The notes under the pieces were generated by a model. It worked only from the letters and a program-made list of their open reading frames with translations, had not been told where the DNA came from and did not search any database. 59,216 nucleotides of DNA. Origin: Rickettsia endosymbiont of Bradysia coprophila. GTDB lineage: Bacteria > Pseudomonadota > Alphaproteobacteria > Rickettsiales > Rickettsiaceae. The stretch is from assembly GCA_019468145.1 (NCBI GenBank), contig JAHXDM010000022.1, positions 1 to 59,216 on the forward strand, given 5' to 3'. The position numbers and the translations under genes are program-made. Positions within the stretch are counted from its first letter, which is position 1. The number at the start of each line of letters is the position of its first letter. Shown here in pieces: positions 36,081-58,995 of this stretch.

Positions 36081-36291
36081 GGGTCACCTGTCGGGCAAAG
36101 TGCAGCGCGCGGTAACACTCGACCTGGGCGCAGACGGCGTGCTGCAGCACCGACGTGCCCAGGGTGAACTGCGCGGCCACCAGGAGATTCACGGCGGCCA
36201 GCGCTTCCTCTGCCAGGCGGATCTGTTCGGCCGCCGGCAGCTGCTGGTCGGCGAACAGGTCATCGTCCTGGAAGTCGTCGCCGGCGTTCAC
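36070..36291 (-). CDS. Unknown acidic protein, 73 aa
   Basis: The start at the GTG at 36291 overlaps the RusA stop as GTGA. The protein has 73 residues with an acidic start (NAGDDFQDDDLFADQQ) and one long helix (QIRLAEEALAAVNLLVAAQF). Unknown function. Confidence 0.65.
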   Translation of the reverse strand: MNAGDDFQDDDLFADQQLPAAEQIRLAEEALAAVNLLVAAQFTLGTSVLQHAVCAQVECYRALHFARQVTHDP

Positions 36292-36890
36292 CGGCCCACC
36301 AGGCGCATGGTGCGCATGCGCGTACCCAGCCCCAGGTGATTCATGCGGATGGACGGCGTGGGGTAGTTGGCCAGGAAGTCGACGGCCTCGGCGCGCGTGG
36401 CGGTGCAGCTCACGCCGGCGCGGCGGTACCCGTGCACCACGATGCACTCCTGCTCAGTGGTGAATGCCTTGTCGGTGATGCAGCCGACCACCTGGCCGTC
36501 ATCCTTGAACAGCACGCCGTTGCAGGCGTCTTCGATCGCCTTTACCAGGTTGCTGCAGTCCGGCTTTTTCGTGTGGTGCAGCAGACCCTCGGCGGCCAGG
36601 TCACGCTGCCACTTCGTGTAACTGCTTGGGATCTTGAAACGGAACTGCACCAGCAGGTCTACGGGGCAGGTCAGCAGCTCGCCGCGGGCGGCCTGCTGTG
36701 CGTAGTCGCGCACAAGCGCCTCAAAGTCGCGGGTCTTCTCCGGCGTGTAGGTGCTGATGATCGGCTGGCCCTCCTTCGTGAGGATCGGCTTACCGCCCTT
36801 GGCACGCTTGATCGTGGAGCGTGCGCGGCCCTTGGCCACGGGCGTGTGGGGGATGATGAAGTGGAACAGCAGGGCGGGCTGGTCGGGCAT
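36288..36890 (-). CDS. rusA: RusA-like Holliday junction resolvase, 200 aa
   Basis: This endonuclease cuts branched DNA made during replication and recombination, before packaging. The protein has 200 residues from the ATG at 36890 with GGAG ahead. The RusA pattern is clear at about 108-135: KKPDCSNLVKAIEDACNG then VLFKDDGQV, with acidic residues D111, D121, D130 and D131 in the expected places. The N-terminus (IIPHTPVAKGRARSTIKR) also fits. At 200 residues it is longer than E. coli RusA (120), mostly by a C-terminal addition. Confidence 0.9.
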   Translation of the reverse strand: MPDQPALLFHFIIPHTPVAKGRARSTIKRAKGGKPILTKEGQPIISTYTPEKTRDFEALVRDYAQQAARGELLTCPVDLLVQFRFKIPSSYTKWQRDLAAEGLLHHTKKPDCSNLVKAIEDACNGVLFKDDGQVVGCITDKAFTTEQECIVVHGYRRAGVSCTATRAEAVDFLANYPTPSIRMNHLGLGTRMRTMRLVGR

Positions 36891-36910: not shown

Positions 36911-37777
36911 TTACTTCAGCAGGGCAAACGCTTCGGCGAAGCGCTTGCGGTTCTCATCGGGCGATAGGGGGCTGGACGGGGTAAACGCTGCTATCACTTC
37001 AGCGGCCGGCGGCTGTCGGCCTTGCTGGGTTTCTACGGGCGGCCCCGGGGTACCGGGGTAGCGCGGGCGGTACGGCTCGGGCTTGCCGGCGGCCTTGGCC
37101 GCCATCGCGTCGCGCTGCTGCTTTTTCTCGGCCTGGGTGCGGACGTGCCAGCAGAAAACCGAATCCCAATCCTTGGCATCGCCGCGCTTGGTCCAGTAGG
37201 TGCGGAACTCGGGCAGCAGGCTGGCCGCGAACTCAGGATTGAACCCGGCAATGCGCAGCTCGTTTTGGCATTGGTCGCTCGGAAGCCAGCCCATCGGCAT
37301 GGGCTTTTCGGTGTTATCCACACCCCCCTGTAGTTGTAGAGTCTCAGAATCTAAAACCTCTTTAATAGTGACCCTACCCACAATGGGTAGGGTACCCACC
37401 CCATCCTGGGTAGGGGCCCTACCCACATTGGGGCGCCCCATTTTGGGTAGGGGGTTGTCCAGCACCGCGGTGATCGCTTCGTATTCCAGGCGGTACCGGT
37501 TCGGCTGGCCAGACTGTTCCTTGATGGTCAGCAGGCCCGCGTCGCGGAGCTTGTAAACAGCGCGAAACAGGGTGTTTTTGCTCAGGAATGGGAACGTGTG
37601 CTGCAGGTCGGCATTGCCCATTTCCACCCAGCGTTCACCGCCGCGGCCAGGCCGCCGGCAGTTGGCCAGGAAATGCAGCTGCTGCAACACCATTGCCTCA
37701 TTCAGCCCGACAGCCACCGCCAGGCTGGGCAGTACCAGCAATGGCGGCTCGGGGATCAGGGCACGGCTGCTGCTCAC
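36911..37777 (-). CDS. Replication initiation protein with DnaT-like domain, 288 aa
   Basis: The start at the GTG at 37777 overlaps the regulator stop as GTGA. Residues about 20-105 look like a winged helix (NADLQHTFPFLSKNTLFRAV, then YKLRDAGLLTIKEQ). Residues about 110-136 are coded by the iteron repeats and form a Gly/Pro-rich linker. Residues about 164-215 resemble the DnaT single-strand-binding and helicase-loader domain (WLPSDQCQNELRIAGF, then FRTYWTKRGDAKDWDSVFCW). The arrangement, initiator with the origin inside its own gene, is that of lambda O. Probable role: binds the iterons and brings in host helicase. Confidence 0.82.
   Translation of the reverse strand: MSSSRALIPEPPLLVLPSLAVAVGLNEAMVLQQLHFLANCRRPGRGGERWVEMGNADLQHTFPFLSKNTLFRAVYKLRDAGLLTIKEQSGQPNRYRLEYEAITAVLDNPLPKMGRPNVGRAPTQDGVGTLPIVGRVTIKEVLDSETLQLQGGVDNTEKPMPMGWLPSDQCQNELRIAGFNPEFAASLLPEFRTYWTKRGDAKDWDSVFCWHVRTQAEKKQQRDAMAAKAAGKPEPYRPRYPGTPGPPVETQQGRQPPAAEVIAAFTPSSPLSPDENRKRFAEAFALLK
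37331..37453. other. Candidate replication origin: iterons plus AT-rich tract
   Basis: Within the replication gene, 37372-37453 carries five copies of CCTACCCA in either orientation (CCCTACCCA at 37372 and 37417; TGGGTAGGG at 37384, 37407 and 37444), arranged as near palindromes. On the gene-distal side, 37331-37371 is AT-rich (TTGTAGAGTCTCAGAATCT, then AAAACCTCTTTAATAG) in a genome otherwise near two-thirds GC. Order in the direction of transcription is iterons then AT-rich, as in the lambda O gene. Confidence 0.8.
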
Positions 37778-38079
37778 TCCTGCGGCGCTCCTTCGGGGGT
37801 GTAACCCAGCTCTTTGCAGGTCAGGCCGCCATACACGGACGGCAGGATTTCCTGCAGGGTGACGACGCCGCCGCACAGCTTCACCAGCTTGCGGGCCTGC
37901 TCGGGCTTCGGGTGGCTGTTGGTGTTCTTCCACCAGCGGCTCACGCTTTCGTGATTCTGCAGGCCGACGCCCTGGGCCACCTTGGTGACGCCGCCGGCAG
38001 AACGGATGGCGACATAGCGAGCGCGCAGGACCGGGTCCAGGGGCAGCTCGGGGTTGGTGGTGTCGTGTTCGTTGCTCAT
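37774..38079 (-). CDS. Cro/YdaS-like regulator, 101 aa
   Basis: The protein has 101 residues from the ATG at 38079. Residues about 26-58 form a helix-turn-helix (RSAGGVTKVAQGVGLQNHES, then VSRWWKN) typical of the YdaS/Cro-like family. It is the first gene of the minus-strand early run and faces the plus-strand recombination module across a 189-base divergent region. This makes it the likely regulator of one or both promoters. No opposing CI-like repressor was found. Confidence 0.75.
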   Translation of the reverse strand: MSNEHDTTNPELPLDPVLRARYVAIRSAGGVTKVAQGVGLQNHESVSRWWKNTNSHPKPEQARKLVKLCGGVVTLQEILPSVYGGLTCKELGYTPEGAPQE

Positions 38080-38268: not shown

Positions 38269-39171
38269 ATGAACGATGAAACCCCGCAGCAGCTGCCGCC
38301 GATCAGGTGCAGCACCACGTTTGCCCAGGTGGCCACCGCCCTGGCCAAAGCCCAGGGCGCATTCCCGCCGATCCCCCGCGATCGCACGGTAACCGTCGAT
38401 ATCAAAGACAGGGAAACCCGCCGGATCGTCGGTAACTACAGCTACAAATACGCCCCGCTGGAAACGATCATCGAGAAAACCCGGCCGGCGCTGTCGGAGG
38501 CGCAGCTGGCCACGCTGCAAAGCCCCGAGCTGGTGCCGGTCGACGGCAAGATGGTGGAAGTGGTCCGCACGGTCCTGGTGCACTCCAGCGGCGAATGGAT
38601 GGCGGTGGATATCCCGTTGTTCTTCAGCCGCGGCCAGAATGCCGCGCAGGACTACGGCAGCTCGCTGACCTACGCCCGCCGCTACGGCATGACCCTGATT
38701 CTGTGCGTGGCTGCAGACGACGACGACGACGCCAAGCACCTGGAAGGATCGGAGCGCCCGGGGCATACCGGCAGCGGCCGCGGTAGCTCGGATGTGGCAA
38801 TGCCGGCGCGCCGCAGCCAGCAGCCTGGGCATGACGAACTCGACCAGGCCATGCGCGAGCTGCAGACACAGCTGGACCAGCGCCGCGCACCGATCACCAG
38901 CGCCGCACCGGAAGACGCCGAGCCCAGCGCGCTGCCGCCGCGCCAGGACGCCCCGGCGGATCCGGCGGTGGACGTGGCCACCGGTGAGTGCACCAGCCCG
39001 TGGGGCTCGGATCTGACAGACGGCCAGCTGTCGATGGCCAAGCAACGCGCCAAGGTTGCCGGCATGTCGGACCCGGCGGTGTTTGAGGCGTTCGGCATCA
39101 TCACCCAGGCCAATATCCGCGAGTCGCTGGCGGGCCTGAAGCAACGCGCCGACGCGGCGCTGGGCGTCTGA
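38269..39171 (+). CDS. ERF-family single-strand annealing protein, 300 aa
   Basis: This is a phage recombinase that anneals single strands and helps circularise or repair phage DNA. The protein has 300 residues from the ATG at 38269 (CTGGAG ten bases ahead). The ERF core is at about residues 15-150: FAQVATALAKAQGAFPPIPR, then YKYAPLETIIEKTRPALSEA and QDYGSSLTYARRYGMTLILC. The acidic AADDDDDAKHLE follows, then a disordered linker and a helical end. It heads the recombination module. Confidence 0.93.
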   Translation: MNDETPQQLPPIRCSTTFAQVATALAKAQGAFPPIPRDRTVTVDIKDRETRRIVGNYSYKYAPLETIIEKTRPALSEAQLATLQSPELVPVDGKMVEVVRTVLVHSSGEWMAVDIPLFFSRGQNAAQDYGSSLTYARRYGMTLILCVAADDDDDAKHLEGSERPGHTGSGRGSSDVAMPARRSQQPGHDELDQAMRELQTQLDQRRAPITSAAPEDAEPSALPPRQDAPADPAVDVATGECTSPWGSDLTDGQLSMAKQRAKVAGMSDPAVFEAFGIITQANIRESLAGLKQRADAALGV

Positions 39172-39173
39172 CC

Positions 39174-39803
39174 ATGCGCGGCTTGACCTTCGATGAAGCC
39201 CGGCATGAGTACCGCCTGGACGGCGTCAAGCTGCCAGGCGTCACCACGGTGCTGAAGCCGATCAGCTCGGCCCACTACGCCGGCGTGGATCCCGACGTGA
39301 TGGCGCGCGCCGCAGCGCTTGGCCAGGCCGTGCACAAGGTGATCGAGCTGGACCTGCAGCAGGATCTGGACACGGACAGCCTCGACCCCGAGCTGGTGCC
39401 CTACTACCGCGGCTGGCGCATGTTCCTGCGCCAGTCCGGTTTCCAGGCGTACCTGTCGGAAAAGAAGCTGGCCAGTGTCCAGGGCCGCTACGCCGGCACG
39501 CTCGACCTCATGGGCGTGCTGAACGGCCTGCCGTCGCTCATCGATGCCAAGCGCGTGGCCGTGGTGACTCCCAGCACCGGCCCGCAGACGTTCGCCTATG
39601 GCCAGCTGGTCCGGGAAAACTGCCCCGAGCTGCTGGGCCCCACCACCCCGCTGCGGCGCTACGCCCTGCAGCTGAAGAAAGCTGTTCCCAACGCCGTTAC
39701 TGCCGACTGGCAGCTGCTCCCCTTCACCAACGATTCGCGCGACCGCCTTGTGTGGCAGTCGTGCCTCAACATTGCCCATTACCTCCAGGAATCCAAAGCA
39801 TGA
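39174..39803 (+). CDS. PD-(D/E)XK exonuclease (recombination partner of ERF), 209 aa
   Basis: The ATG at 39174 lies two bases after the ERF stop. The protein has 209 residues. Motifs of the PD-(D/E)XK exonuclease superfamily are present: the PGVTTVLKPI start, an AALGQAVHKVIE helix, YAGTLDLMG carrying the Asp, and LIDAKRV with the D-x-K pair near residue 123, then a QTFAYGQLV helix. Such enzymes make the 3' single strands that ERF anneals. The stop overlaps the next ATG. Confidence 0.87.
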   Translation: MRGLTFDEARHEYRLDGVKLPGVTTVLKPISSAHYAGVDPDVMARAAALGQAVHKVIELDLQQDLDTDSLDPELVPYYRGWRMFLRQSGFQAYLSEKKLASVQGRYAGTLDLMGVLNGLPSLIDAKRVAVVTPSTGPQTFAYGQLVRENCPELLGPTTPLRRYALQLKKAVPNAVTADWQLLPFTNDSRDRLVWQSCLNIAHYLQESKA

Positions 39804-40732
39804 ACGCACCCACCGCAACCCCTATCGCCCAAGCCGTTGCCGAGCTGGTCAAGCCGCAGGAAGTGATCGCCGCCGAGCGCCAGGCCCAGGCCGCGATCGA
39901 CGGCGCACGCCTGCTGGTGATCGACTCCCGCGAAGGCTACGAGGCGGCCGCCGATGACCTGCAGTCGCTGAAGGATCGTTTTCGTGCCGTCGAGGCGCAG
40001 CGCGTCCACCTGAAGGAGCCATTCCTGGAAGGCGGCCGCCGCGTTGACGCCTTTTTCAAGGTGCCCCTTGACCGCCTGAAGGAGGCGGCCGATATCGTCT
40101 CCCGCGGCATGCTCGACTATGACCGCCGCGAACAGGAACGCCTGCGGAAGGAGCGCGAGGAAGCCGACCGGAAGGAGCGCGAGCGCCTGGCGGAAGTGAA
40201 GCGCCAGCAGGAGGAGGCGGACAAGGCCGCGCGCCAGGCCGCTGAAGCCCAGGCCGCTGCGGACAAGGCCGCGCGGCAGGCCGCTGAAGCCGCCCAGGCC
40301 GCCACCGATGCCGCTGCCCAGGAAGCGGCACAGGCCGCTGCCGCTGCCGCTGAAGCTGCAGCCGCTGAAGCTGCAGCCGCGACCCAGGCCGCCCAGGCCC
40401 AGGCGGTGCAGGTCCAGGAAACGGTCGACCTGCTGGCCGTGACGCCGGCCGCACCGGTGGCCACGTCGCAGGCGCGCGCTGCAGGCACGTCCACCGTGCG
40501 CACCTGGAAGGCCATAAGCATCGACCTGCGCGAGCTGGTGTTGGGTGCGGCCAAGGCCATCCAGGAAGGCAGCGAGCGCGCGGACGAACTGCTGTCCTAC
40601 CTGCAGGCCAACGAAAGCGCGCTGAACGCCACCGCCAAGGGCCTGAAGGGCGCAGCGCGCGTGCCTGGCGTCCTGTTCGGAGAGTCGGCGAGCATCCGCG
40701 CCTCCAGCCGCGGCAAGGGCCGCGCGGGCTGA
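39800..40732 (+). CDS. Ala-rich coiled-coil protein of the recombination module, 310 aa
   Basis: The ATG at 39800 overlaps the exonuclease stop (ATGA). The protein has 310 residues: a helical head (YEAAADDLQSLKDRFRAVEA), a charged coil (EQERLRKEREEADRKERERL), an Ala-rich repeat zone at about residues 140-210, then a C-terminal domain (TVRTWKAISIDLRELVLGAA). The layout recalls DUF1351 or Gam-like helical proteins found beside phage recombinases, but the match is not certain. It may protect DNA ends or act as an accessory protein. Confidence 0.75.
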   Translation: MNAPTATPIAQAVAELVKPQEVIAAERQAQAAIDGARLLVIDSREGYEAAADDLQSLKDRFRAVEAQRVHLKEPFLEGGRRVDAFFKVPLDRLKEAADIVSRGMLDYDRREQERLRKEREEADRKERERLAEVKRQQEEADKAARQAAEAQAAADKAARQAAEAAQAATDAAAQEAAQAAAAAAEAAAAEAAAATQAAQAQAVQVQETVDLLAVTPAAPVATSQARAAGTSTVRTWKAISIDLRELVLGAAKAIQEGSERADELLSYLQANESALNATAKGLKGAARVPGVLFGESASIRASSRGKGRAG

Positions 40733-44443: not shown

Positions 44444-46799
44444 TCGGGGTTACCTCGCCGCCGTCAATGATGGTTTCGGGTCGCTTCCAGGTCGGCGCCT
44501 CGATCACATTCTGCGTCGGGCCAGGCTCGGGCGTGAACATGAAGCTGCGCCGCCAACGCTGCCACGACGTGCCGTCATCGTTGATCGCCCACAGCTCCAT
44601 GTCGACGCGACCAGCCACCACCAGGGTGACGGTGGCCTGGGTGCCGGCGATATCGCCGCGGGCCACGATATCCGCGCCGGTGCTGTCGATGAACCGCAGC
44701 CCGTAGCGGGTCAGCGGATCCGGGCCGGCGCCGGCGTCCTCCTGGCCGATGACCTGGTCAGACTGCAGCACGCGGTCGCGGTGTCGCCATGTGACGGTGA
44801 AAGTGCCGGTGATGGCTCCAGGATCGTCAGCGCCGGCCATCCGCATGCGAGCCGGGGGGTAGGGAAGGGCCTGGCGCCCGGCGATCGTGACGGACGCCTG
44901 GGGAGCCACGTCGATGGGCAGGCCGCCGGTGCTGGAGTTGGTCACAGCGCGCGCTGTGATCTGCTCGCCGATCGCGTACTGCGTCTGCGACAGCACACTG
45001 TCGTTGTCGTAGGCCCACAGCCGCACGCCGGTACCCCAATCCTGGGGCAGCGTGTCCAGGCAACCGCGGGCCACGGTCAGCTGGGTGCCGTCCTGGCTCA
45101 TGCCATCGATGCGCACGCACTCGGCATCGGGGTGGGTGCCCAGCCAGGCCGTGCTGCCGATTTCCAGGTAATCCCACTGGCCCAGCTTGTTGGTGATCTT
45201 CAGGACGGTTTCCTGCCGCCCAGCGGGCGCCGACAGCGTGGCGGTCGGGGTCAGGTCGCCGGCGCCGGAGTCGAGCCAGTCGGCGCCCTGCCGCACAAAG
45301 GCGTTGAAGTTGACCGCGAAGCCAGGCGGCTTGCTGGCGCACATGCCGAAGAAGCCCACCATAGGGTCCAGCTGCTTTGCCGCGTCCAGCCCCAGCGCCT
45401 GCACCAGGTCGCGGAACGGAACCTCGAAAGCCTGGACGAACGCCGGCGGCTGAACGGCGCCGTTCGGGTCGACCCAGCCCGGCGGCTGCGGCTTGACGTA
45501 GGACGTAAGGCCGAACTTGAACACGTCCTCTGTGCCCTCGATCGTGATCCCGTCGCCGTCCTGGCTGTTGTCGGTCACCTTCAGCACGCGAACGGGCATG
45601 TTCAAGATGCCCTCCTCTGGCCAGGACAGGCGGATGACCTGGCCAGGAACCACCTTGTAGGCCTTGCGGTTCGTGCGCAGGCGGACGCGCGCCAGCATCG
45701 CCGACAGCACGTCAACGTCGCGCTGGGCCAGGCGCGCGGCGATCGCCTCGGTGGGACAGCAGGCGTAGGCCTTGGTCTGGTTGATGACGCCGCCGGTTGC
45801 CTGGATCGCGGCCAGGTTGGCCACGGTGATGCCGCGCTCGGCGTTGTTGGCCGAATCGTTCCAGGTGACGGTCACCTCATTGACGGTTTCCTCTGCGGTG
45901 ACGCGCTCCAGGTTCTCCAGCACACAGTCGACGTCGTAGCCCTGGGCGCGCGGCCCGAAGTGCACCAGCTGGTCCAGCTCGTAATCCCCACGCATGGGGA
46001 TGATGCGCCACTGCAGGTTTTCAGGATCCTGGATCAGCATGGCGTTGCAGTGGTCCAGCACCTGCTGGAGCGTGTCCTGGATCTTGTCCGACTGCACCCA
46101 CTTCACCCACAGGCCCAGGCCCTCGGCATGGAACAGGTCGGCCGCTGCCCGGAAACTCGCATCGTTCAGATTGCCGGGCGGGTGGCTCATCCCGTCCTCT
46201 GTGTCGGTCAGGATTTCGTAGATGACGTGGGCCGGGTTGGCGCACAGGATCCGCGTGGGCACGTCCACGCGCGGAAGGTCCACCTTCACCTCAGCGCCCA
46301 GGAACTTGAAGGCGCGCGTAGCACGCCCCTGCGGCTGCAGGTCGGGCGCCGGGCCCACGTCTACCTCTGCCTTTTCCGGGTACCAGCACACGCCGGTTTC
46401 CCATCCGGCCTTGGTCCTGCGGATCCGGTAGGCCCAGGCCTTCAGGTACGGCGTAATGGCGCCGACCTTGCCCTGGCGAAAAACGGTGCTGAAGATGCCC
46501 CTATAGGCGGGGTTGTAGGTTCCGCCCTGCACGCTGGCCAGGTAGTCGTTGGGCTGCTGCGTAGGGCCGCCCATCATCACGTCCAGCTGGCCATCGATGC
46601 CGCCCTCCTTTTCATCGCCACCCCACAGCTGGGACGCATCGATGCGGATGCGCTCGTTACCGGTGACCTTTCCCGACCAGGCGATGCGCTCGCCGCCCAT
46701 GATCGAAATCAGCATGTCAATCGGACCCTTACAGATGCCCATGTGCAGGCCCATGAGATACCAGTAGCCGATGGTCTGCTTTTTGCTCTTACCGCCCAT
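44436..46799 (-). CDS. Tail hub / tip attachment protein, 787 aa (intact copy)
   Basis: This is a large tail-tip protein in the place of lambda J. The protein has 787 residues from the ATG at 46799. The start (KQTIGYWYLMGLHMGICKGP) is characteristic of hub proteins of Mu-like and YuA-like siphophages. Residues about 255-480 resemble a phage hub/tail domain (VNEVTVTWNDSANNAERGIT, then RTNRKAYKVVPGQVIRLSWP). The C-terminal 200 residues look like fibronectin or Ig-type beta domains (TGTFTVTWRHRD, ATVTLVVAGRVDMEL). It lies between the 69-residue gene and the fibre. A broken partial copy is at 1-2023. Confidence 0.87.
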   Translation of the reverse strand: MGGKSKKQTIGYWYLMGLHMGICKGPIDMLISIMGGERIAWSGKVTGNERIRIDASQLWGGDEKEGGIDGQLDVMMGGPTQQPNDYLASVQGGTYNPAYRGIFSTVFRQGKVGAITPYLKAWAYRIRRTKAGWETGVCWYPEKAEVDVGPAPDLQPQGRATRAFKFLGAEVKVDLPRVDVPTRILCANPAHVIYEILTDTEDGMSHPPGNLNDASFRAAADLFHAEGLGLWVKWVQSDKIQDTLQQVLDHCNAMLIQDPENLQWRIIPMRGDYELDQLVHFGPRAQGYDVDCVLENLERVTAEETVNEVTVTWNDSANNAERGITVANLAAIQATGGVINQTKAYACCPTEAIAARLAQRDVDVLSAMLARVRLRTNRKAYKVVPGQVIRLSWPEEGILNMPVRVLKVTDNSQDGDGITIEGTEDVFKFGLTSYVKPQPPGWVDPNGAVQPPAFVQAFEVPFRDLVQALGLDAAKQLDPMVGFFGMCASKPPGFAVNFNAFVRQGADWLDSGAGDLTPTATLSAPAGRQETVLKITNKLGQWDYLEIGSTAWLGTHPDAECVRIDGMSQDGTQLTVARGCLDTLPQDWGTGVRLWAYDNDSVLSQTQYAIGEQITARAVTNSSTGGLPIDVAPQASVTIAGRQALPYPPARMRMAGADDPGAITGTFTVTWRHRDRVLQSDQVIGQEDAGAGPDPLTRYGLRFIDSTGADIVARGDIAGTQATVTLVVAGRVDMELWAINDDGTSWQRWRRSFMFTPEPGPTQNVIEAPTWKRPETIIDGGEVTPNG

Positions 46800-46998
46800 T
46801 GCCGGCGCTCCTCTTTCGCACGTCTTCCACCAGTTGCCTGGCCATGTCGTTGCCGGTGGCCAGCATCACGCTGCAGGGCAGGCCCTCGCGCACGAACTGC
46901 TGCCAATCCAGTTGATGCGCGCGGCAAAACTCGCGGGCGCCGCTGACACACCAGCGCCTGGCGCGAACGTCCGCGATCGTCACAACGTCGTGGGTCAC
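46789..46998 (-). CDS. Small hub-adjacent protein, 69 aa (intact copy)
   Basis: The start at the GTG at 46998 overlaps the previous stop as GTGA, and the gene overlaps the hub start by 11 bases. The protein has 69 residues, probably soluble and helical (ADVRARRWCVSGAREFCRAH, then LDWQQFVREGLPCSVMLATG). Small genes of this size precede the hub in related phages, possibly as assembly helpers. Function unknown. Confidence 0.7.
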   Translation of the reverse strand: MTHDVVTIADVRARRWCVSGAREFCRAHQLDWQQFVREGLPCSVMLATGNDMARQLVEDVRKRSAGNGR

Positions 46999-47228
46999 TT
47001 CTTGCCCCCGGAACTCTTTTTGATGGCCAACGTGGCCAGGTCGCCATACCAAAGCACGTTGTAGCCCGTAAGCCACCCTTCACCGAAACACCAGGGGATC
47101 GCGCGGCCCTCCTCGGCGGTCGGCACGTCGAAGTCGCTCAACGACGGGGGCTTGGGAATCGGGGGCTTCGGCGCCATCGCGTAGCCGATAATCAGCGCCA
47201 CGATGAGGATCACAATCTGAACGTACAT
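46995..47228 (-). CDS. Small N-terminally anchored tail-module protein, 77 aa
   Basis: The start at the ATG at 47228 is chosen because residues 1-18 (MYVQIVILIVALIIGYAM) form a membrane segment and the upstream open part is a shadow of the BR0599 gene. A Pro-rich linker (APKPPIPKPPSLSDFDVP) and a short soluble end follow. A membrane-bound protein in the tail module is unusual; it may help tail-tip assembly or DNA entry. Left copy at 2220-2453. Confidence 0.7.
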   Translation of the reverse strand: MYVQIVILIVALIIGYAMAPKPPIPKPPSLSDFDVPTAEEGRAIPWCFGEGWLTGYNVLWYGDLATLAIKKSSGGKK

Positions 47229-47236
47229 GTCAGGCC

Positions 47237-48061
47237 TCAGTAAACCGGCGAGCCGCCGAACGGGTTTTTTTCCGGGAAGTACGGGAAGCCGCCATAGTTG
47301 GCGACGTTGTCGAACTTCGTTGCACATGTTGCCAGGGTGTGATCGTCGCCTGGGTAGGCCTTCAGCGTCATGCCGGCGACCAGGCCCAGGGGGAAGTTGG
47401 TCAGCGTGAAGCGTGTGCCCACATGCTCACGGATCGGGCGCCGATCGATCACGCCCGGGGTGATTTCGTAGACGATGAATCCACCCATGAACCACCCATC
47501 TGCGCGGCCGGCAACGCTGGACACCGTCAGCTGCAGGCCCTGCACCTCCTGGGCGATCACCTCGATGGCGAAGGCCTCCAGGTTGATGCCGCAGCGGCGG
47601 CCGCCGGTCAGCAGCGGGCACAGGCGCTGGTAGGCGCGGCGCAGCCCCATGCGCTGCAGGCTGGTGTAGGTCGGTTCGTGGGTTAGCACCGCCTCGCGCG
47701 TCTCCATGTCCCACGCCACGCTGGTGACGCGGCCCTGCCACACCGCCCGGCGGTCGGTGGGGTCATCCATCTGCACCTCGCGGATGGTCAGCAGCACCGT
47801 GTCGATCGGCGGCGTGGACCGGAACAGCTGGGCCACGGGATTGTCGGATTCCATCGTGACGTCGATCGGCGACCGGATCGGGTCGCCGCCCTGTTCGATG
47901 GGGCCGTGTCGCATCGTGCCGCTGGCCTTGTAGGTCTGGAACTGCAGGACCAAATCCTGGTCGGCGTTGGTGTAGCGGTACACGTTGCCCCCGCGCGCCC
48001 AGGTGTAGGTGTAGACCTTGCGGCCCTGGTACTGGCTGCGCTCCAGGGAATCAAAACTCAT
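47237..48061 (-). CDS. BR0599/DUF2163-family distal tail protein, 274 aa (intact copy)
   Basis: The protein has 274 residues from the ATG at 48061. The C-terminal half matches the BR0599 family (PF09356): YQRLCPLLTGGRRCGINLEA with two Cys, then TLATCATKFDNVANYGGFPY near the end with NPFGG. The N-terminal half is a DUF2163-like beta domain. Members form part of the distal tail or baseplate hub in siphophages and gene transfer agents. Broken copy at 2462-3285. Confidence 0.85.
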   Translation of the reverse strand: MSFDSLERSQYQGRKVYTYTWARGGNVYRYTNADQDLVLQFQTYKASGTMRHGPIEQGGDPIRSPIDVTMESDNPVAQLFRSTPPIDTVLLTIREVQMDDPTDRRAVWQGRVTSVAWDMETREAVLTHEPTYTSLQRMGLRRAYQRLCPLLTGGRRCGINLEAFAIEVIAQEVQGLQLTVSSVAGRADGWFMGGFIVYEITPGVIDRRPIREHVGTRFTLTNFPLGLVAGMTLKAYPGDDHTLATCATKFDNVANYGGFPYFPEKNPFGGSPVY

Positions 48062-49751
48062 GGCGGTAAGTCCTCATCGGCATGGGTGAATCGGCATGCG
48101 CATTGTCGCCGCCCATGTCACCGGACCACCACGCCCATTCGATCCGATCGCTACTCCCGCGCATCACCGACAGGAAGCTGATTTGCACGCCGGCGGCCGG
48201 ATCCAGCAGCAGCTGCAGCGGCGCAGCCAGGCCGATGCGCTCGCGGCCGTTGCCCAGGTCGGTGCTGCCGGTGATCTGGCGATACTGGATGCCGGCCGAC
48301 GTCTCGATGCGGATATCCGTGCGCCCGACCAGGCCGCGCAGGTAGGCGGTGTAACCCATGAATGCAACGTCGATGTTCGTTGCGCCCGGGGCGGCCAGCA
48401 CCTGCAGGTCCATGTCGTTGGCGTAGGAAGGCACCCATAGCGGCCGCTGCTGCCCGGCCAGGTAGTACTGGATGCGACGTAGCCTGTCGATCTGCGCGCG
48501 CCCCAGCGGCGCGTAGCGGAGCGTCTGGCGCATGGTCGGGTAGCCGGATCGGTCGACCCAGCGCGGCACGCCGTCGTTGTTGTCGGTGATGGCCAGGCGC
48601 CGCTCGGGCGACAGCTGCGGGGCGTTGGACCAGTCCGGCCGATCCTCCAGCACCGGCAGGCCGCGGTGTTGCGGCATGGTGGCCGGGTCGATCGCCGGAT
48701 AGGGGTTGGCCGCGGCTACCTGGAACGTCACCGACACGTCGCTGCAGGATCCGGTGAACCGGACCACGCCGGCGTCTGTGATGCGGGCCGACTTCGCCGG
48801 GTACACCACGCTGCCAGCTGGCCAGCTCCTGGCCAGGTCGCGCTTGACCTGCAGGCCGCTGTCCAGCACCTGGTCGATTTCCACCACTTCGCTGGTAAAC
48901 GCGTCCTCGCCCAGCAGCATGGCCAGGCCGCCGGCGACGAACTCGCGCCCGATCGTTGGCGGCAGCTGCAGGAGGCGATCGCCGGCGGCTGCAGTCGCCT
49001 GCAGGTCGGCGCCGTGTGGCCACAGCGGCAGGGCCCAGGCGCGCGCAGTCCAGCCCAGCAGGGCGGCCTCCATCGCCTGGCGCTCCACGTCGGTGGCGGT
49101 GGCGGTGAAATCCCAGGTTTGCCGCGGCGTCAGGCGCCTGGCCACGCGCTGTTCGTCGCCCTCCTCGGCTTCCATCACGTCGGTGAGCCATTCCAGCGAC
49201 TCGCCGATGCCGCGGCCCCAATCGGGGCGCCAGGTCCACGGGCTCACGCGGTTGCCGGTGATGTGCATCACCAGGGTGGTGCCGGTGTCGAAGCTCCACG
49301 ACACCGTCGCATCGATCGTCGGCGGCCCCTCGGGCGACACACGCACCGACCAGGCACGTTCCTGCAGGGGGCCGAACGCCAGCGGCGGCGATCCCTGGCC
49401 CACCAGCTCGATGCCCTCGCCGTTGGCCAGCACCAGGCTGTCCAGGCGCACGCCGTAGCTAAAGGCGTTCCACACCGACACGGTGCGCTGCTGCTCGCCC
49501 ACCACGTTGCCCAGGGCCATCGTGGTGATCGACAGGTGCAGGCGGTTGTAGAAATCCAGGTCGAAAACCGGCTGGAAGGTGCCGGCCAGGGCCGCCTGCG
49601 GCGGCGCGATCGGCGACTGGCCGAGCGGCGTCAGCACGCCACTGCCGCGGCCCGCCATGCGCGCCACGCTGGCGTCCCGCCCATTCCACGGCGTGCCGAC
49701 CTGCCACGAAAGCGGGTTCGGCGGATCCGGTGCCCACAATGCCCAGGACAT
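48051..49751 (-). CDS. Tail structural protein, 566 aa (right copy)
   Basis: Second, identical copy of the gene at 3275-4975, at the exact 44776 offset. See that entry. Confidence 0.8.
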   Translation of the reverse strand: MSWALWAPDPPNPLSWQVGTPWNGRDASVARMAGRGSGVLTPLGQSPIAPPQAALAGTFQPVFDLDFYNRLHLSITTMALGNVVGEQQRTVSVWNAFSYGVRLDSLVLANGEGIELVGQGSPPLAFGPLQERAWSVRVSPEGPPTIDATVSWSFDTGTTLVMHITGNRVSPWTWRPDWGRGIGESLEWLTDVMEAEEGDEQRVARRLTPRQTWDFTATATDVERQAMEAALLGWTARAWALPLWPHGADLQATAAAGDRLLQLPPTIGREFVAGGLAMLLGEDAFTSEVVEIDQVLDSGLQVKRDLARSWPAGSVVYPAKSARITDAGVVRFTGSCSDVSVTFQVAAANPYPAIDPATMPQHRGLPVLEDRPDWSNAPQLSPERRLAITDNNDGVPRWVDRSGYPTMRQTLRYAPLGRAQIDRLRRIQYYLAGQQRPLWVPSYANDMDLQVLAAPGATNIDVAFMGYTAYLRGLVGRTDIRIETSAGIQYRQITGSTDLGNGRERIGLAAPLQLLLDPAAGVQISFLSVMRGSSDRIEWAWWSGDMGGDNAHADSPMPMRTYRHEF

Positions 49752-49753
49752 GG

Positions 49754-50698
49754 TCAGCCCTCGCGCCGGTAGGCGTAGCCGTACACGCCCGAATTGACCG
49801 TGCCGGCGGCGCCGTTCTTCCTGGCCACGGGGAACACCAGCCAGGTGTCGGTACCGAGTGGGTAATCCTGGCCAGGCTCCATGTTGTCCAGGCGGACCAG
49901 GCGCATGTCGACCGGGTAGCCGATATCGGACCAAAGGGAGCTGCCGCGGGAGACGGCGCACCACAGCGGGATCAGCGGCGCGCGGCCAGTGATGATGCTC
50001 GCCGCCGACTGGTAGGGCAGCAGCACGGTGCCGCGCTGGGCCTGGTCCTGTCGCCATCCGCAGCGCAAGGGCTGCGCCGCGTTGTAGTCGCCGACGTGGT
50101 ACCGCGGCGACACGCCGTCATAGTCGGCGCGTACCACAGTGGCGTTTCCGCTGGCCCAGCTCAGGCTCCCGGCGTCATCGAAGGGCACGCCGTGGTAGAC
50201 GGAATCGGGCTGGTCGATACCGGAATTAACCTGGGTGGTCCAGTTAGAAGCGAAAACGAACTGGCCGCCGGTGTAGGCGCCCACTTTCTTCAGCACGCCC
50301 ATGCCCAGGTGTCGGTAGGTGCCCGGGTCCGTCTCCACCACCATGTATGCGTACTTTCCGCTGGGCGCTTCGCCGGCGAAGAAGTGGTAAGCCTGCATGG
50401 GCGCGGTCAGGCGGTTGGAACGCACATAGGGCGACACGCCAGGCTGCACTGTGTCGCCGGCGTTGGAGAAAGCCGTGTGCTGGGCAATCTGGATCGACGG
50501 GCCGCTGTTGGTCGTGGTGGTGTCGCTGAACCAGGAATAGAACAGGCCTGCAGCGTTCACCTGCAGGGCCTTGCCCTGGCCCGCGCTGTTGAGGCGATCG
50601 CCCCAATAGTCGATGCCCCAGCCTGCCGCCTGCAGGAACAGGCGGAAGCGGTCCAGTAGGTCGTTTACGTCCAGGGCGGTGCCGGTTTGGTAGCTCAT
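49754..50698 (-). CDS. Virion structural protein, 314 aa (right copy)
   Basis: Second, identical copy of the gene at 4978-5922. See that entry. Confidence 0.78.
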   Translation of the reverse strand: MSYQTGTALDVNDLLDRFRLFLQAAGWGIDYWGDRLNSAGQGKALQVNAAGLFYSWFSDTTTTNSGPSIQIAQHTAFSNAGDTVQPGVSPYVRSNRLTAPMQAYHFFAGEAPSGKYAYMVVETDPGTYRHLGMGVLKKVGAYTGGQFVFASNWTTQVNSGIDQPDSVYHGVPFDDAGSLSWASGNATVVRADYDGVSPRYHVGDYNAAQPLRCGWRQDQAQRGTVLLPYQSAASIITGRAPLIPLWCAVSRGSSLWSDIGYPVDMRLVRLDNMEPGQDYPLGTDTWLVFPVARKNGAAGTVNSGVYGYAYRREG

Positions 50699-50704
50699 GG
50701 GGGA

Positions 50705-52279
50705 TCAGTCCTGGCGGATAGCGAAGAAGTCGGCCGCAGCGTTGCGGAAAGTGTTCTGGAACACCAGGTGGTCGAAGCCATCCATGCGGATGGTCGTCTC
50801 GGGCACCAGGTTGAAACCCGGGGTGAAATAGCAGCCGTCCAGCTCGCCCCACATGTGGCGCGGATCGTTGCTGGTCAGCACGATTTCGTACAGCACGCGG
50901 GTACCGTCCAGGGCCTCGCGGAAATCGGCCTCGCGCCCGCTGTTGTTGATCGCTGCCGGGTACACCTTGCCGCGCGTTTCGCTGTCGCCAGTGTCGTTGC
51001 TGCTCAGGTAGCGATTGGAGTGTGGGCGCCAGACGCCATCCGGGTACCGGGCAACCATGCCGTAGCGCCCCGGGCTGCTGAAGCCGCGGAAATTGGCGCT
51101 GGTGCTGGTGGCCACGCCGGCGGCGTCATTGCCGGTACCGGCGTTGATTGCGGGATACGGGTGCACGCTGGGCAGCTCGTAGGGCTTGCCCAGGCCCTGG
51201 TAGAACGGCACGTACACTGCGCCGATCTTGGCCACCCCGGTGATGCGCCGACCGTTCACCGCTGCCCACCAGTTGAAATTGTTGGACGTCAGCGGGACGT
51301 TGCGCAGGCCACTGTTGGCCCCCTGGCTCCGCACCATCACCTGCGGGTCATAGGCCCGGAACTGGTAGAAATTGAACGATCGCGCCGCCACTGCGGCGTC
51401 CTCGTACAGCTCCACGCCCAGGAAAATGGCATCGAGCCCATCATTCCCAGGAGCCGACACGATCCACTCTGGCCGGCGCTGCAGCTCAATATCGCCGGTG
51501 GTGCCCTTCAGGAACCGCAGCTCGGTGATTTCCACCTGGCCGCTGGTCGATGCGGTGAAAACCGCGCGCCAGTAAAGGTGCTGGCCAACGCTGGGAACGT
51601 TGAACGTGCGCGACTCGCCGGCGTTGGCCCACTGGATGCCGGTAAACGTAGCTGCGGCCTGCCAGGCCTGGCCATCGTCGGAGTACTCGACACGGAACGC
51701 GGTTGGATAGCGCGACGGCGCGTCGTAGATGCTCACATTCACCCGGCGCACGTCCGCCGGGCCGATCATCGAGAAACCGGCGCTCGCCGGCAGCGTGGCC
51801 GCCAGCGCCTGGTAGTTGGTGCTGGTGCCGGCCTGGTTGTCCCACAGCCTGGACGGGTTGGCGAACCCATCGGAGAAACGCATGCTCGGCAGCGCCCCGT
51901 GCCGGCGTACCAGCGACCACCGCGGCGACGTCGAAAGCTTGAACGCATCGCCCACGGCAAAGGGCGTGGTGCCGCCGTTGATGCGGAATGCCACCTGGCC
52001 GCTGGTGAAAGGCTGGTCGGTAGTGGCCACGCCGATATCGCCGGCGAGACTGCCCACCACCTGGAACGTGCTGGAGCTGGTGGCGGTGATGGTGAAGGTT
52101 TCGGCGGCTGATGCGGATCCGCCGGTGTACCCGCCAGGAACGCCCGTGGTGCCGGTCAGCGTTCCGTTGCCGGTACCGGAATACACCAGGCCGAACGCAT
52201 GCCCGGTATCGCACAGCAGCGCCTGCAGCTGGTCCATGAAGTTGATGTAGCCGGTGGCCACGCCGGTTGCCCAGGTCAT
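50705..52279 (-). CDS. Virion structural protein with discoidin-like segment (right copy)
   Basis: Second, identical copy of the gene at 5929-7503. See that entry. Confidence 0.78.
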   Translation of the reverse strand: MTWATGVATGYINFMDQLQALLCDTGHAFGLVYSGTGNGTLTGTTGVPGGYTGGSASAAETFTITATSSSTFQVVGSLAGDIGVATTDQPFTSGQVAFRINGGTTPFAVGDAFKLSTSPRWSLVRRHGALPSMRFSDGFANPSRLWDNQAGTSTNYQALAATLPASAGFSMIGPADVRRVNVSIYDAPSRYPTAFRVEYSDDGQAWQAAATFTGIQWANAGESRTFNVPSVGQHLYWRAVFTASTSGQVEITELRFLKGTTGDIELQRRPEWIVSAPGNDGLDAIFLGVELYEDAAVAARSFNFYQFRAYDPQVMVRSQGANSGLRNVPLTSNNFNWWAAVNGRRITGVAKIGAVYVPFYQGLGKPYELPSVHPYPAINAGTGNDAAGVATSTSANFRGFSSPGRYGMVARYPDGVWRPHSNRYLSSNDTGDSETRGKVYPAAINNSGREADFREALDGTRVLYEIVLTSNDPRHMWGELDGCYFTPGFNLVPETTIRMDGFDHLVFQNTFRNAAADFFAIRQD

Positions 52280-52282
52280 TGC

Positions 52283-55200
52283 TTACCCCTTGTTTGCGTT
52301 CGTGAGTCGGTTCCGCTGCATGTGACGCACCACGATGCGTTCGCCTGCAGCGCTTTCCAGGAATTTTTCAGCCGAGCGGGAATCATCCACCAGGACGATG
52401 CGCGTTGCGCCATCGCTGCCGGGCTCCCCGTCCCTGCCGCCGTTGAGGCGGTGCCGCGGATCCATTCGCGTGATGACCTCCTCGCCTTTCTGCAGGACCG
52501 CCGGCACTTCGTCCGGGGCCAGGCCGGCCACGCCGCCGGTGTGGTACCGCGGCGCTGCCGACCACAGGTAGGCAGGCAGTTGGCGCGTGTGGCCACCCTC
52601 GCCGACCACGCCGCCCGAGTGCTTCACGTTGCCGGCAACGGCCGCCGTCATCTTGCCCAGGCCCGGATAGATGGCATCCAGCAGCTGCAGCACCAGGTAG
52701 GTGGCCAGCGCATCGGCAGCAATCTGGACCATCGATTGCGCGAAATTAACCACGAAATCGCGCAGCGCCTCGCCGGCGCTCTTGGTCCCGCTGGCCAGGT
52801 CGGTGAACAGCTGCGTAAGCGGGCCTTTCAGGGCCTGGGTAGCCTTGTAGGCCAGGCTGTCGGTGTTGATCGCAAGCTGCGCAATCTGGCCGTTCACTTC
52901 CTGCAGCGAGTCCAGCGCCCGCTGCTCGCTCATCGCATCATTCGCAGCGCGCGCGGCCGCGGCAATGGCCTGGTACTCATCGCGCATCTTGACCAGGGTG
53001 GCCAGCGCGGTTTCCCGCTGGGCCTGGACGCGGGCCGAACCGTCATCCTTGCCGAGAATGCCGGCATCGACCTGGGCGCCCACGGCGGTTTCAGTCTGCT
53101 GGAAGCGCTGCACGGTCTGCTGCACGCGCTGGTCGACCTCATCAAGGCGCGCCTTGAATGTCTCCATGTCGATCAGCTTATTTACCAGGTCGATTCCGTC
53201 CTGGTCGGCGTTGGCCATCAACCGTGATTTCAGCTCCAGGAACTCGCTTTCCAGCTGGGCGGTGGTCGCCTTTCCGGTCTGCCCCATCGCCTGCAGGATG
53301 CGGATCTGGACCGCGCCCAGCTCTTTGCTGATTTCCTCCAGCGCCAGGCGCTGCTCGCGCGCGTTGTCCTGCGCCAGGTTCCGGCGTGCGCGCTCCAGGA
53401 TGATGATATCGGTAAGGGCCGCCTTGCGTGCCTGGTCGGTCGTGGCGGTGGCAGCGCGGGCGCGTGCCTCGGCAATGTCGGCATCAATGCTGGCCTGCTG
53501 CAGGCGCGTTTTTTCCGCGTAGTACTCGCGGGTGGATACCTGCCAGTCGTCGTAGCGCTGCTGCAGCACCACCAGCGCGCGCTCGGCCGCATCCTTCAGC
53601 AGCTTGAACTGGTCGGCTGCAGCCTTGGCGCCCTTGGCGGTACCGCCGCCGCTCGCGTCGCCGTCCAGGGTGTCCTCGGCGGCCTTGTTGGCCTGGCCTG
53701 CCAGCTCGAAAAGGTCGAAGTACGCCGAATCGATCTGCGCCAGCTCGGCCTGGGCCGTGGCGGTCGTGCGCTTGTAGGCGTCTTCCATCGTCTCGGTGGC
53801 CACCACCGAGTCGCGCAGCGCCTGGGACACCCGCGCCGATGCGTTGGCCAGCTTGTCGCCGACCAGCGGCACCGCGCGCTGCAGGCCCTGGATACTGTCG
53901 TAAAAACTGGCCACCCGCGTGGCCACCTCGTTGAACGCGCCCAGGGCGCCAGCCTTCAGGGTGGCCCAGGTCACAATGAAGCTGTTTTTGATGATGTTCG
54001 CCGCCTTGGTCAGGCCTGCAGTCAGCGCCACGCCAGCCTGGCGCACCACTACGAACTCATTGGACAGGTAGGTGCCGATTTCCCAGCCGGTGAACGCCGC
54101 GAAGGCGAGCGCGGCCGCCGCCTTCAGCTTCGTGGCCCAGCCGGCCGCCGCCAGGGCGGATCCGTTCATGGACAGGCTGAAGGCGTTTACCGCAGTGGTG
54201 GTGCCGTTGATCGTGGTCGTGAGCGCCAGGGCCTGCACCTGGAAAGCGCGCATGGCCGGGGTGTTCAGGGCGATGGACGTGCGCAGCGCGGTGAAGGCGG
54301 CAGCGGCGCCGGCGACGATCGCCGGCACCAGGCGGAATGCCGCGTACCAGGTAACCCACAGCTTTGCGCCGGTCAGCAGCAGGTTGGCCACCAGCTGCAG
54401 GTTGTTGGCCAGCGCCAGGATGGCATCGGCCAGCTGCCGGCTGGCGCCGTGCGCGCTGTCAGTGTCGCCCACGAACTTGATTACCGCGTTGCGCAGCGAC
54501 GTGAAGGCATCCGAAACGGTCGGCGGCAGCTTGGCGAACTCATCGCGCAGCGTCTGCTGCTGGGTCTGGATGGCCTGCACCACCAGGTCGCTGGTGAGCT
54601 TGCCGTCCGCGGCGAACTTGCGCAGCTGGTCGGTGGTCTTGATCTGGCCCAGCTTCACCAGGCCTTCGGCGATCGCCGATGCAAGGCGCGGCGTCTGCTC
54701 CAGTACCGAATTCAGCTCCTCGCCGCGCAGCTGGCCGCTGGCCAGGCCCTGGCCGAGCTGGAACAAGGCGGCCTCGCCGGCCTGTGCGGTGGTGAACGAA
54801 AGCGCCACCGCCTGGTTAATCGCCTCGGTCAGGCCCAGGGTCTGCTGCTGGGTGGTGCGGCCGGCGCGGGCAATGCGGGCGTACAGGTTGACGGTGCCCT
54901 CCAGGCTCTGCCTGGTGCGCTGGGCAATCACGAACGTCTGCGCCTGGGCGCGGTTGAACTCCTCCTGGCTCTTGGTGGCCAGGGTCAGCTGGCCGCGCAG
55001 GCGGTGGCGGTGTCGGCGTAGTTGACCAGGGCCTTGATGGCGCCCAGCACGCCGATGCCGGCGACCAGGAGCCGGGCCTGGGTGACCGCGCCGGCGATGC
55101 TGGCCCGCACGGATTCGGCCGCGGTGGCAGTCTGCCGTGCCGCGGCCGTGGTCCGGTTCAAACTACTGGTAAGCGCGTTGGCGCCGTTGGCCGACTGCTG

Positions 55201-55305
55201 CGCCTTCGTGTTGACCTGTTGGAACTGCCCGGAGAGCTGGGCGAGCGCCGCCCTGATTTCTGACAGCTGGGCGGTTACTCGGATTTCCAGCTCGGTGCTG
55301 CTCAT
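52283..55305 (-). pseudogene. Tape measure protein, right copy split by one missing G
   Basis: Same gene as 7507-10530. Near 55003 the run 'gcaggcgggtggcgg' of the left copy reads 'gcaggcggtggcgg' here. This breaks the frame after residue 100. The left copy is intact, so this is most likely the first of the sequencing errors toward the right end. Confidence 0.88.
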
Positions 55306-56106
55306 TGCTGCGGGCTCCCTGTGATTAGCTTTTCAAAGTCTTTCGATTCGTAGTGCTGGGCCGCGCGCAGCAGGATGGCCAACGCTGTTTGATCGCGCTT
55401 CCTTGCGCGATCGATCGCGGCACTGAAGGCGTGCACCTGGTCGAGCGTGTAGCCGTCGACTCGATCAGGTGGGTGGCCGTGGTCGTACAGCTGCTGCAGC
55501 GTGTCCGACCACAACCATGTCGCCTCTGTCAGCGCGTCAGCAGTCCGCCGAGCCCGCCGTTTCGGCCCAGGGTCAAGCCCTGGGCCACGAAAAAACCGGC
55601 GTTGACCACGACAACGTGCTTGACCAGCACCAGCACGCTGACCAGCTCCAGGTCATCGAACTGCTGCAGCAGCTGCCGCTGGGTGTCCTCGTTGTGGTTG
55701 GTGTCCAGGGCGCAGGCCAGGGCCTTCAGCACGCTGGGGCCATGTTCTTCCAGCACGGAAATAAGCCAGTCGCCATCATTCAGGACGTTCTGGACGTGCG
55801 GCGGCAGCGATTCGGCGGCCTGTGCGGCCGGCTGTGCGTCGTTCGGGGTGCCACCCTGCCCAGGGGTAGCGGCGGACGGGGGAAGGCCCGCACCGGCGCT
55901 GGTGGGCGCCTTGGACAGGGTGGCGAAAATGGGTCGTACCAGCTTCAGGAACGGGAACACCTGCCGCATCTTCAGCGGGCGAACGGTGAACGTGTACTGG
56001 CCCAGCTCGACGGTGACGGGCTCGCCGCTGCCGCTGGCCAGCTGGTCGACGTCGCGCTGGACGTCCTGGGCTGCATTGGGATCTGCTGCTGATGGCGCTT
56101 GCTCAT
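55302..56106 (-). pseudogene. Tail chaperone pair, right copy with 1-base loss
   Basis: Same as 10527-11332, including an intact slip site and hairpin (55564-55595). One G is missing near 56078 ('cattgggatc' versus 'cattggggatc'), which breaks the first codons of the short form. Confidence 0.85.
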
Positions 56107-56199
56107 GGTGTGGGCCTCCTTCCAGGCCTGGGGGTCAGTGGATCAGGTGGAACGGTGATGGTGCACGCCGGAACATTCGCGCCGGCGTGCACCAGGTGC

Positions 56200-56958: not shown

Positions 56959-56970
56959 GTGTATCTCCGA

Positions 56971-57445
56971 TCAGGGGGTGCCGACGTAGCTTGCGGCGGT
57001 GGTGAAAGCGATTGGGTAGTAACCGAACCCTGCCGACGAAACGGCAGCGCCCGGGCGGGATCCCAGCGTCATGGGCAGGAAGCCTGCAGGGGCCGGAAAC
57101 CCAGCAGGCCTTTAGCACCGCATCGAACAACGGTGAAACTTCGTCCTGGATGCCTTCAGCGGTGGCGGTGTCGTAGGCGCTGGAGACGTTGAGCACTACC
57201 AGGAACTGGAAACCCACCTGCTGCCGGTTGGCCTGGTTGGCGCCTGGCCAGGGCGCTGGATCGGGGTGTACCCGCTGTAGATGACGGCCACGGACGGGCA
57301 AAGCATGTTGTTCTCGGCCACTGCGTCGTACTCGCGCGCGCTGTAGACGGTTTCGGCCAGGGCCGGCTGCCGGCGGCGGTAGGGCATCGATCAGCACCTG
57401 GCGCAGGCGCGCCTGCAGGGCCTTGCTGATGGCGGCAACACTCAT
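56971..57445 (-). pseudogene. Tail terminator-like protein, right copy broken by indels
   Basis: Same gene as 12203-12682 with net five missing bases (for example near 57055, 57085, 57107, 57241 and 57370). Confidence 0.8.
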
Positions 57446-58446: not shown

Positions 58447-58471
58447 GTGGGCGTGCCCTCAGTTGCTGCGG

Positions 58472-58910: not shown

Positions 58911-58995
58911 GGTTGTTTCCTCGCTGGTTGCGGTGGAGTACTTCGGTTGGAACTACGGCGCCCAGGTTGCCCTGGCGCTTTTACGCTGGCTGGGT

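Follow-up and report, generated by a model that had tools for sequence, protein, structure and literature searches.

A putative replication origin of dyad repeats within the initiator gene of a Suso-type siphophage

The region at positions 36911-37777 of the window (the whole stretch of 59,216 bases analysed here) is the gene of a replication initiator, and embedded in it lies, very probably, the replication origin of a siphophage of the Suso/StM171 type. As far as the sequence can indicate, binding, melting, the use of DnaA and the recruitment of helicase would proceed as follows: dimers of the N-terminal winged helix of the initiator would bind four CCCA-N3-TGGG dyads, the recognition helix, which starts S-K-N68-T, would read the CCCA half-site, and the bound array, together with host DnaA on a single box, would open the AT-rich tract that lies between them. 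The C-terminal DnaT domain would then hold the exposed strand and recruit the host DnaB helicase, leading to theta replication, and the disordered linker of the protein would be mostly a by-product of carrying the origin. The features concerned are listed in Table 1.

Table 1. Positions in the window of the initiator gene, its domains, the putative origin and the adjoining genes
Feature	Position	Strand	Remarks
Upstream gene overlapping the start of the initiator gene	37774..38079	-	YdaS/Cro-type repressor matches, sub-threshold; "immunity repressor" in Suso annotation
Replication initiator gene	36911..37777	-	288 aa, GTG start; N-terminal winged helix, linker and DnaT domain
N-terminal winged-helix domain (residues 4-107), phrog_6493 type	37457..37768	-	phrog_6493 E 2.1e-15, residues 4-106; model helices and wing
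N68 codon, second residue of predicted recognition helix 67-79	37574..37576	-	Ranked first of 108 columns by its association with the base that flanks CA
Dyad 1	37432..37452	-	Centre 37442
Dyad 2	37417..37437	-	Centre 37427; GGCGCC overlap with dyad 1
Dyad 3	37395..37415	-	Centre 37405
Dyad 4	37372..37392	-	Centre 37382; best palindrome, 18/20 positions symmetric
Disordered linker (residues 111-158), coding DNA overlaps the putative origin	37304..37447	-	pLDDT <50 for 111-158
AT-rich tract, putative unwinding element	37328..37367	.	33% GC; lowest-GC 40-mer of the 67.5% GC phage unit
Perfect DnaA box TTATCCACA	37314..37322	+	Sole TTWTNCACA on either strand of the window
DnaT domain (residues 159-223)	37109..37303	-	PF17948 E 1.5e-13
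RusA resolvase gene, downstream of the initiator gene	36288..36890	-	PF05866 E 9.9e-25

The phage unit and its initiator

The window consists of a phage unit of approximately 44.8 kb and a head-to-tail overlap of 14.4 kb, and it is contig 18 in an assembly of 25 contigs and 2.27 Mb. The two copies of the overlap (window 1-14483 and 44756-59216) show 0 mismatches and 76 gap positions, the latter concentrated towards both ends of the overlap; this combination looks like what over-assembly would leave of a phage genome that is circular or permuted. The head-to-tail duplicate is thus probably one such genome, over-assembled with indel errors and binned in the 2.27-Mb assembly. The initiator gene is 99.7-99.9% identical to those of the Stenotrophomonas phages Suso and StM171 and the Xanthomonas phage HXX_Dennis, and 89% identical to that of phage QH16. 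Suso is a temperate phage for which headful packaging was predicted, and its genome report leaves the origin unmentioned (PMC9022531). The same initiator protein is also encoded by SSEB01000020.1 (L009, L010), a contig of 44,466 bases in a Nevskiaceae MAG where the gene is split across the contig ends; here too, a circular phage contig has been binned with a bacterium.

In phages Suso and QH16 the gene is annotated as a DnaD-like primosome initiator. DnaT is the only Pfam match of the protein at E up to 1, and no NCBIfam model matches it at E up to 0.01. Searches of solved structures by sequence returned 0 matches at E up to 1 with a profile of the N-domain, and one regulator, at E 0.2, with a profile of the whole protein. 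The predicted structure is of modest quality (mean pLDDT 64.5, pTM 0.37); the best structural matches to the model are the N-terminal domains of plasmid initiators, none of them passing E 0.001 and with other winged helices close. The structure was built without information on the dyads or the residue-base code described below, and it places residue 68 second in the helix spanning residues 67-79, which has the recognition-helix position of a winged helix.

No helicase loader gene is found directly downstream of the initiator gene, where the RusA resolvase gene lies, and ten neighbouring Suso proteins that were scanned gave no clear match to a helicase or a helicase loader. Their clear matches were to ERF, SSB and KTSC, with an exonuclease as a PHROG match. 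Hosts of this type probably use DciA rather than DnaC. The divergently transcribed gene at window 38269-39171 (by offset from L002:10873-11775), RecA-like in the Suso annotation, instead matches PF04404 (E 1.2e-16), the family of ERF single-strand annealing proteins.

Layout and conservation of the array

The first-pass annotation reported five opposed repeat units inside the coding sequence of a DnaT-domain protein. The repeats are real: of the 8 copies of CCTACCCA in the window, 5 are clustered in opposed orientation at 37373-37451, while 100 dinucleotide shuffles of the whole window gave a mean of 1.01 and at most 4 copies. The count of five is better replaced by four 21-bp dyads, CCCTACCCA-N3-TGGGTAGGG, in which one half is often degenerate and whose core, CA-N3-TG, is common to a large family of phage initiators. 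The array proper covers 37372-37452, with dyad centres 15, 22 and 23 bp apart, and its gene-strand sequence is CCCTACCCA AAA TGGGGCGCCCCA ATG TGGGTAGGG C CCCTACCCA GGA TGGGGTGGGTA CCCTACCCA TTG TGGGTAGGG. The longer core CCCA-N3-TGGG (CCCANNNTGGG) is present exactly four times in the 59,216 bases, always in the array, and the full CTACCCA in 5 of the 8 half-sites. The remaining CCTACCCA copies, at 2576, 43013 and 47351, were considered as a second array and rejected; none of them is a CCCANNNTGGG dyad, and the window is therefore without a second array of this type.

The AT-rich tract was also pointed out in that annotation, correctly, as a 40-base stretch downstream of the repeats. It adjoins the fourth dyad directly, and the corresponding tract is the lowest-GC 40-mer of the initiator gene in QH16, L005 and L006 as well. 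Beyond it, as seen from the array, lies the DnaA box, a perfect match to the DnaA-box consensus. A first-order Markov model predicts 0.07 perfect and 0.65 loose boxes per phage unit. The array, the lowest-GC tract and the sole DnaA box all fall within 139 bp, and the box stands beside the predicted unwinding element, as in DnaA-assisted iteron origins. The extent first given to the origin, 37331..37453, includes the array; it should reach 37314, the perfect box having been overlooked. Among 201 initiator genes, TTWTCCACA is confined to the Suso-type phage group and L046; the box may have a role at the origin. The minimum of the detrended GC skew, at 34285, lies 3 kb from the array and is confounded by gene orientation, and neither GC nor AT skew settles the position of the origin.

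Four sequences are informative on conservation: the window group, QH16, L005 and L006, whose initiator proteins are, respectively for the last three, 93%, 89% and 61% identical to that of the window. L004 is nearly identical to the window and thus uninformative, and L006 is the only clearly diverged relative. Synonymous change is suppressed in codons 109-155 compared with the rest of the gene in each of the three relatives: 1/28 against 56/143 in L006 (one-sided Fisher 6e-5), 1/43 against 60/205 in L005 (3e-5) and 2/41 against 63/218 in QH16 (3e-4). The three differ from the window at 21 places in the array (14 distinct positions). None of these falls in the cores (32 bases) or the half-sites (35 bases), which between them cover 47 bases, whereas 12 are in the 12 spacer bases and 9 in the other 22 bases. 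The DnaA box shows 0 differences in QH16, L005 and L006. In the array of L006, 23 of 28 bases are retained at the first, second and third codon position alike, against 91, 92 and 68 of 108 in the N-domain: it is the DNA, not the protein, that is conserved. Between the array and the box, 14 of 58 bases differ in L006 and the tract is still AT-rich.

A Gly/Pro linker selected for its flexibility could, in principle, have left repeats in the DNA by codon bias; the linker is indeed predicted to be disordered, and it contains recurring similar peptides, LPKMGR and LPIVGR among them. The half-sites, however, occupy all three codon frames and both orientations, so the array is not a protein repeat, and in 20,000 synonymous recodings of the array peptide there were never more than 2 half-sites, as compared with the 5 observed. 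The four dyad cores were reached by 4 of the 20,000, the peptide partly dictating the cores. When codons are permuted (60 shuffles), the repeat score of the window gene, 73, exceeds the null maximum of 55, and the observed score is reached in 0/60 permutations each for QH16, L006 and lambda O and in 1/60 for L005. Finally, L006 keeps 17 of 28 linker residues and yet every half-site base; a dyad DNA that is kept while its peptide changes refutes the idea of a protein feature, which is hardly credible on all this evidence. The first-pass view that the constraint on the DNA dominates over that on the linker is borne out by the synonymous suppression, by the half-sites and cores free of differences and by the recodings, and the scrambling of the repeats by synonymous change in relatives, named in that annotation as what would refute the proposed origin, was seen in none of the three relatives.

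The search for further relatives in IMG/VR with a single dyad, CCTACCCANNNTGGGTAGG, returned 18 contigs, of which 3 are the known relatives; the other 15 were rejected as relatives, each having a lone dyad (L015 with one extra half-site). Stricter patterns, for the array and for the AT-rich tract plus box, found no relatives in IMG/VR beyond the known 3. These lone dyads bear on another proposal, that the dyads are operators or RNA hairpins serving autoregulation of the initiator or attenuation, with replication starting elsewhere. The dyads are GC-rich and palindromic, and among the 18 contigs with CCTACCCA-N3-TGGGTAGG the 15 have the dyad alone, several looking terminator-like by eye. Against this, four phased copies, an AT-rich tract and a DnaA box are brought together in one place, the spacer bases vary while the arms of both strands are kept, and homologues keep CA-N3-TG and a 23-bp pitch with different outer bases, neither of which an RNA hairpin needs. 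Operators or hairpins are judged very improbable, and an origin remains the preferred explanation of the array.

Dyads and a proposed residue-base code in the wider family

The N-domain has homologues in phages, prophages and genomes, and 26 further ones were evaluated for repeats. The observed repeat score was never reached (0/60 codon permutations) in 17. In the other nine it was reached, out of 60, 10 times in L013, 27 in L014, 20 in L046, 22 in L040, 4 in L057, 1 in L059, 25 in L063, 1 in L065, and 14 and 11 in L038; L014 and L046 are short ORFs, and by codon permutation there is no repeat excess in L063, L038, L040 and L013.

A scan of spacer lengths in 26 genes found the largest excess of dyads at a 3-base spacer (47 against 17.0, sd 4.2, 20 shuffles), and CA is innermost in 30 of these 47. 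In the linkers of the 26 genes that gave the rule discussed below, arm-5 CA-N3-TG dyads number 30 against 6.0 expected (maximum 12, 200 shuffles), and outside the linkers 5 against 2.0; QH16, L005, lambda, L014 and L046 were left out of these counts. The decisive held-out set is that of 27 fresh IMG/VR clusters of homologues, each less than 80% like any earlier gene: their linkers hold 42 arm-5 dyads against 7.5 expected (maximum 14, 200 shuffles) and 37 arm-6 dyads against 3.4 (maximum 9), and outside the linker region there are 0 at either arm length. Ten hits from plasmid records gave 5 arm-5 dyads against 0.65, falling to 4 against 0.67 (9 genes) without L075, which is not homologous, and to 2 against 0.50 (7 genes) when L072 and L074, which closely resemble L062 as near copies, are taken out as well; after these removals the set alone proves little.

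Dyads in the family are phased. In the first 36 genes, 60 of the 74 distances of up to 75 bp lie at 22-24, 45-48 or 68-71 bp, that is, at multiples of approximately 23 bp, in a count that takes related genes separately and includes L075. Half-sites that are exactly CTACCCA are present in L034 and in the Geobacillus plasmid record L067, both with N at the code position, and in the fresh loci L114, L117 and L140. L034 has four dyads at a pitch of 22-23 bp that lead straight into the AT-richest tract of its gene. The longest array among the 26 genes belongs to the prophage initiator L008, with seven arm-3 CA-N3-TG dyads at a pitch of 23-24 bp in gene nt 400-541; the genome record that matches it, L012, is from Moraxella catarrhalis. 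At two places in one genome (L037/L041 and L044/L045) initiator-like genes with linker repeats adjoin, one short (approximately 165 aa) and one long, and these may represent initiators that were duplicated or split.

The base just outside CA varies between lineages together with one residue of the protein. When this base was compared with 108 N-domain columns in 18 representatives (<70% identity), the column of N68 came first, with z 4.2 against 2.1 for the next; 38 of 100,000 shuffles reached this association, before correction for the 108 columns. The scan left out L075 and the ties L041 and L061. Over 26 genes, N goes with C (CCCA) and D with G, while S, K, M, I, T and E go with T and R mostly with C, the exceptions being L037 (D with T) and L070 (R with T). 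The window has N68 and CCCA in 4/4 dyads, and is itself within the set from which the rule was derived.

The rule was fixed before new loci were fetched. Of 80 new IMG/VR loci, 23 lacked an arm-4 dyad, 6 were ties and 14 had residues outside the rule (A, V or P, with base T each); 34 of the 37 testable loci agree. Counted by clusters, agreement is 18/21 at 80% identity (3/20,000 shuffles) and 13/15 at 70% (23/20,000), with N matched to C in 6/6 clusters, and the failures are R with A, K with C and R with T. Without seven near copies, at least 80% like earlier genes, 30/33 loci and 12/14 clusters agree (60/20,000 shuffles). A second set of 34 loci, from genomes, for which A, V and P had been added to the rule, comprised 12 without an arm-4 dyad, 2 ties and 20 testable rows, of which 15 agree; L237 and L238, which the set contained already, and the broken copy L244 had been left out. 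Eight rows were removed as not fresh, seven being at least 80% like earlier genes (L242 equals L013) and L272 being doubtfully aligned. Agreement in the fresh rows is 7/12, or 7 of 11 clusters (82/20,000 shuffles), and the failures in the second set are R with A twice, K with A twice and N with T once. A further 80 loci agree in 77/77 testable cases; they form one cluster and are for that reason not counted as support.

The association between residue and base is real, beyond chance in these sequence comparisons. Where they can be tested, N and S predict the base well; the evidence for D comes from few lineages, and K and R are not predictive, their effect at the code position being context dependent; position 67 probably contributes to the choice. 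The SIKT-type homologues (L125, L129, L130, L132, L134, L136 and L137) have one GCCCA dyad, and Lys is found elsewhere with GTCA or GACA.

This association also bears on the possibility that the array is an origin bound by another factor, be it the upstream repressor or a protein of the host, with the role of the DnaT protein limited to that of a primosome factor. The product of the upstream gene is weakly YdaS/Cro-like, in keeping with such a factor. From one lineage to another, on the other hand, the half-site base follows a residue at the start of the initiator's own recognition helix, less than perfectly where this residue is K or R, and the N-domain and the dyads stay together while the C-domains change: the N-domain is joined to DnaT in the window, L006 and L007, to DnaB_2/DnaD in L060 and L067, to Phg_2220_C in L013, and in L061 to a lambda-O-type C-terminus (phrog_2357, shared with lambda O). 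Binding by another factor is thus very improbable, and the initiator itself is the preferred candidate.

Taken together, these comparisons tilt somewhat in favour of a broader proposal, namely that the phrog_6493-type N-domain and the adjoining linker dyads form a self-contained origin cassette in phages and prophages whose hosts include both Gram-positive and Gram-negative bacteria, which would be recombined with helicase-recruiting C-domains (DnaT, DnaB_2/DnaD, Phg_2220_C, lambda O C-terminal). Its sites would follow a readable code: an invariant CA-N3-TG core, a pitch of approximately 23 bp, and a next base set by whichever residue precedes the conserved Thr in the recognition helix (N for C, D for G, S and small or aliphatic residues for T, with R and K dependent on neighbours). 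If this is true, origins and compatibility groups could be read from sequence in hundreds of phages, the Suso-type group adding a DnaA box to the cassette. A few model systems have provided the known examples of origins within genes. In the present case a likely origin can be located to the base from sequence alone, which also indicates the binding domain and yields a residue-to-base rule open to testing across phages; this would allow origins to be annotated in many temperate phages. Initiator linkers would look repeat-like and yet differ between relatives because the DNA, not the peptide, is selected, and the natural series makes the co-evolution of an initiator with its in-gene site directly testable.

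Comparison with known in-gene origins

The first-pass annotation had called the origin lambda-like. As regards architecture this holds: the lambda ori has four annotated dyad-like iterons within O, with centres 20, 24 and 23 bp apart, followed by an AT-rich tract, and the window presents four dyads and then the tract, within the initiator gene and in the order found in the lambda record. In lambda and in Stx phages, the O protein reportedly forms dimers (PMC7466680). Membership of the lambda O family was considered and rejected: lambda O matches PF04492 and TIGR01610, the window initiator matches neither, and, as had been remarked at first pass, the unit is unlike the lambda iteron (ATCCCTCAAAACGAGGGA for iteron 1, CCCTACCCA-N3-TGGGTAGGG for the window dyad). 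In contrast to lambda, the window initiator has a DnaT C-domain and no P-like gene directly downstream, and no TTWTNCACA occurs in lambda 38300-40500.

A comparable arrangement is that of SPP1, where gp38 is described as binding direct repeats at oriL, which lies within the gp38 gene and has an AT-rich region next to the repeats (PMC6316719), and ORF20 of 80alpha was proposed to bind in-gene repeats like SPP1 gp38 (PMC5499656). The 80alpha gp20, tried as a control, fits another family best (phrog_428), and nt 200-500 of its gene, which hold the annotated rep_origin, contain no arm-5 CA-N3-TG dyad. RepA_N plasmids such as pSK41 offer a close architectural precedent: in pSK41 the middle of rep holds four Rep boxes, which encode a dispensable peptide, and both domains of the protein are DnaD-like (PMC5703833). 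PF06970 (RepA_N) is absent from the Pfam matches of the window initiator at E up to 1; the Foldseek match to a pSK41-type RepA_N, at E 1.3e-3, lies close to those of other winged helices, and the C-domain and the host differ.

Among the open-licence matches listed there is no published description of this origin or code. Relatives by sequence are the DnaD-like helicase loaders of phages in PHROG 6493, with which the window initiator has in common the N-domain, by its profile match, and the CA-N3-TG linker dyads with their residue-base rule, a feature of the type proposed here. The window differs from other members in its DnaT C-domain, its CCCA half-site and the added DnaA box. Judged by sequence, the system would work in the manner of the origins of lambda, SPP1 and pSK41, without being of the lambda O or RepA_N families.
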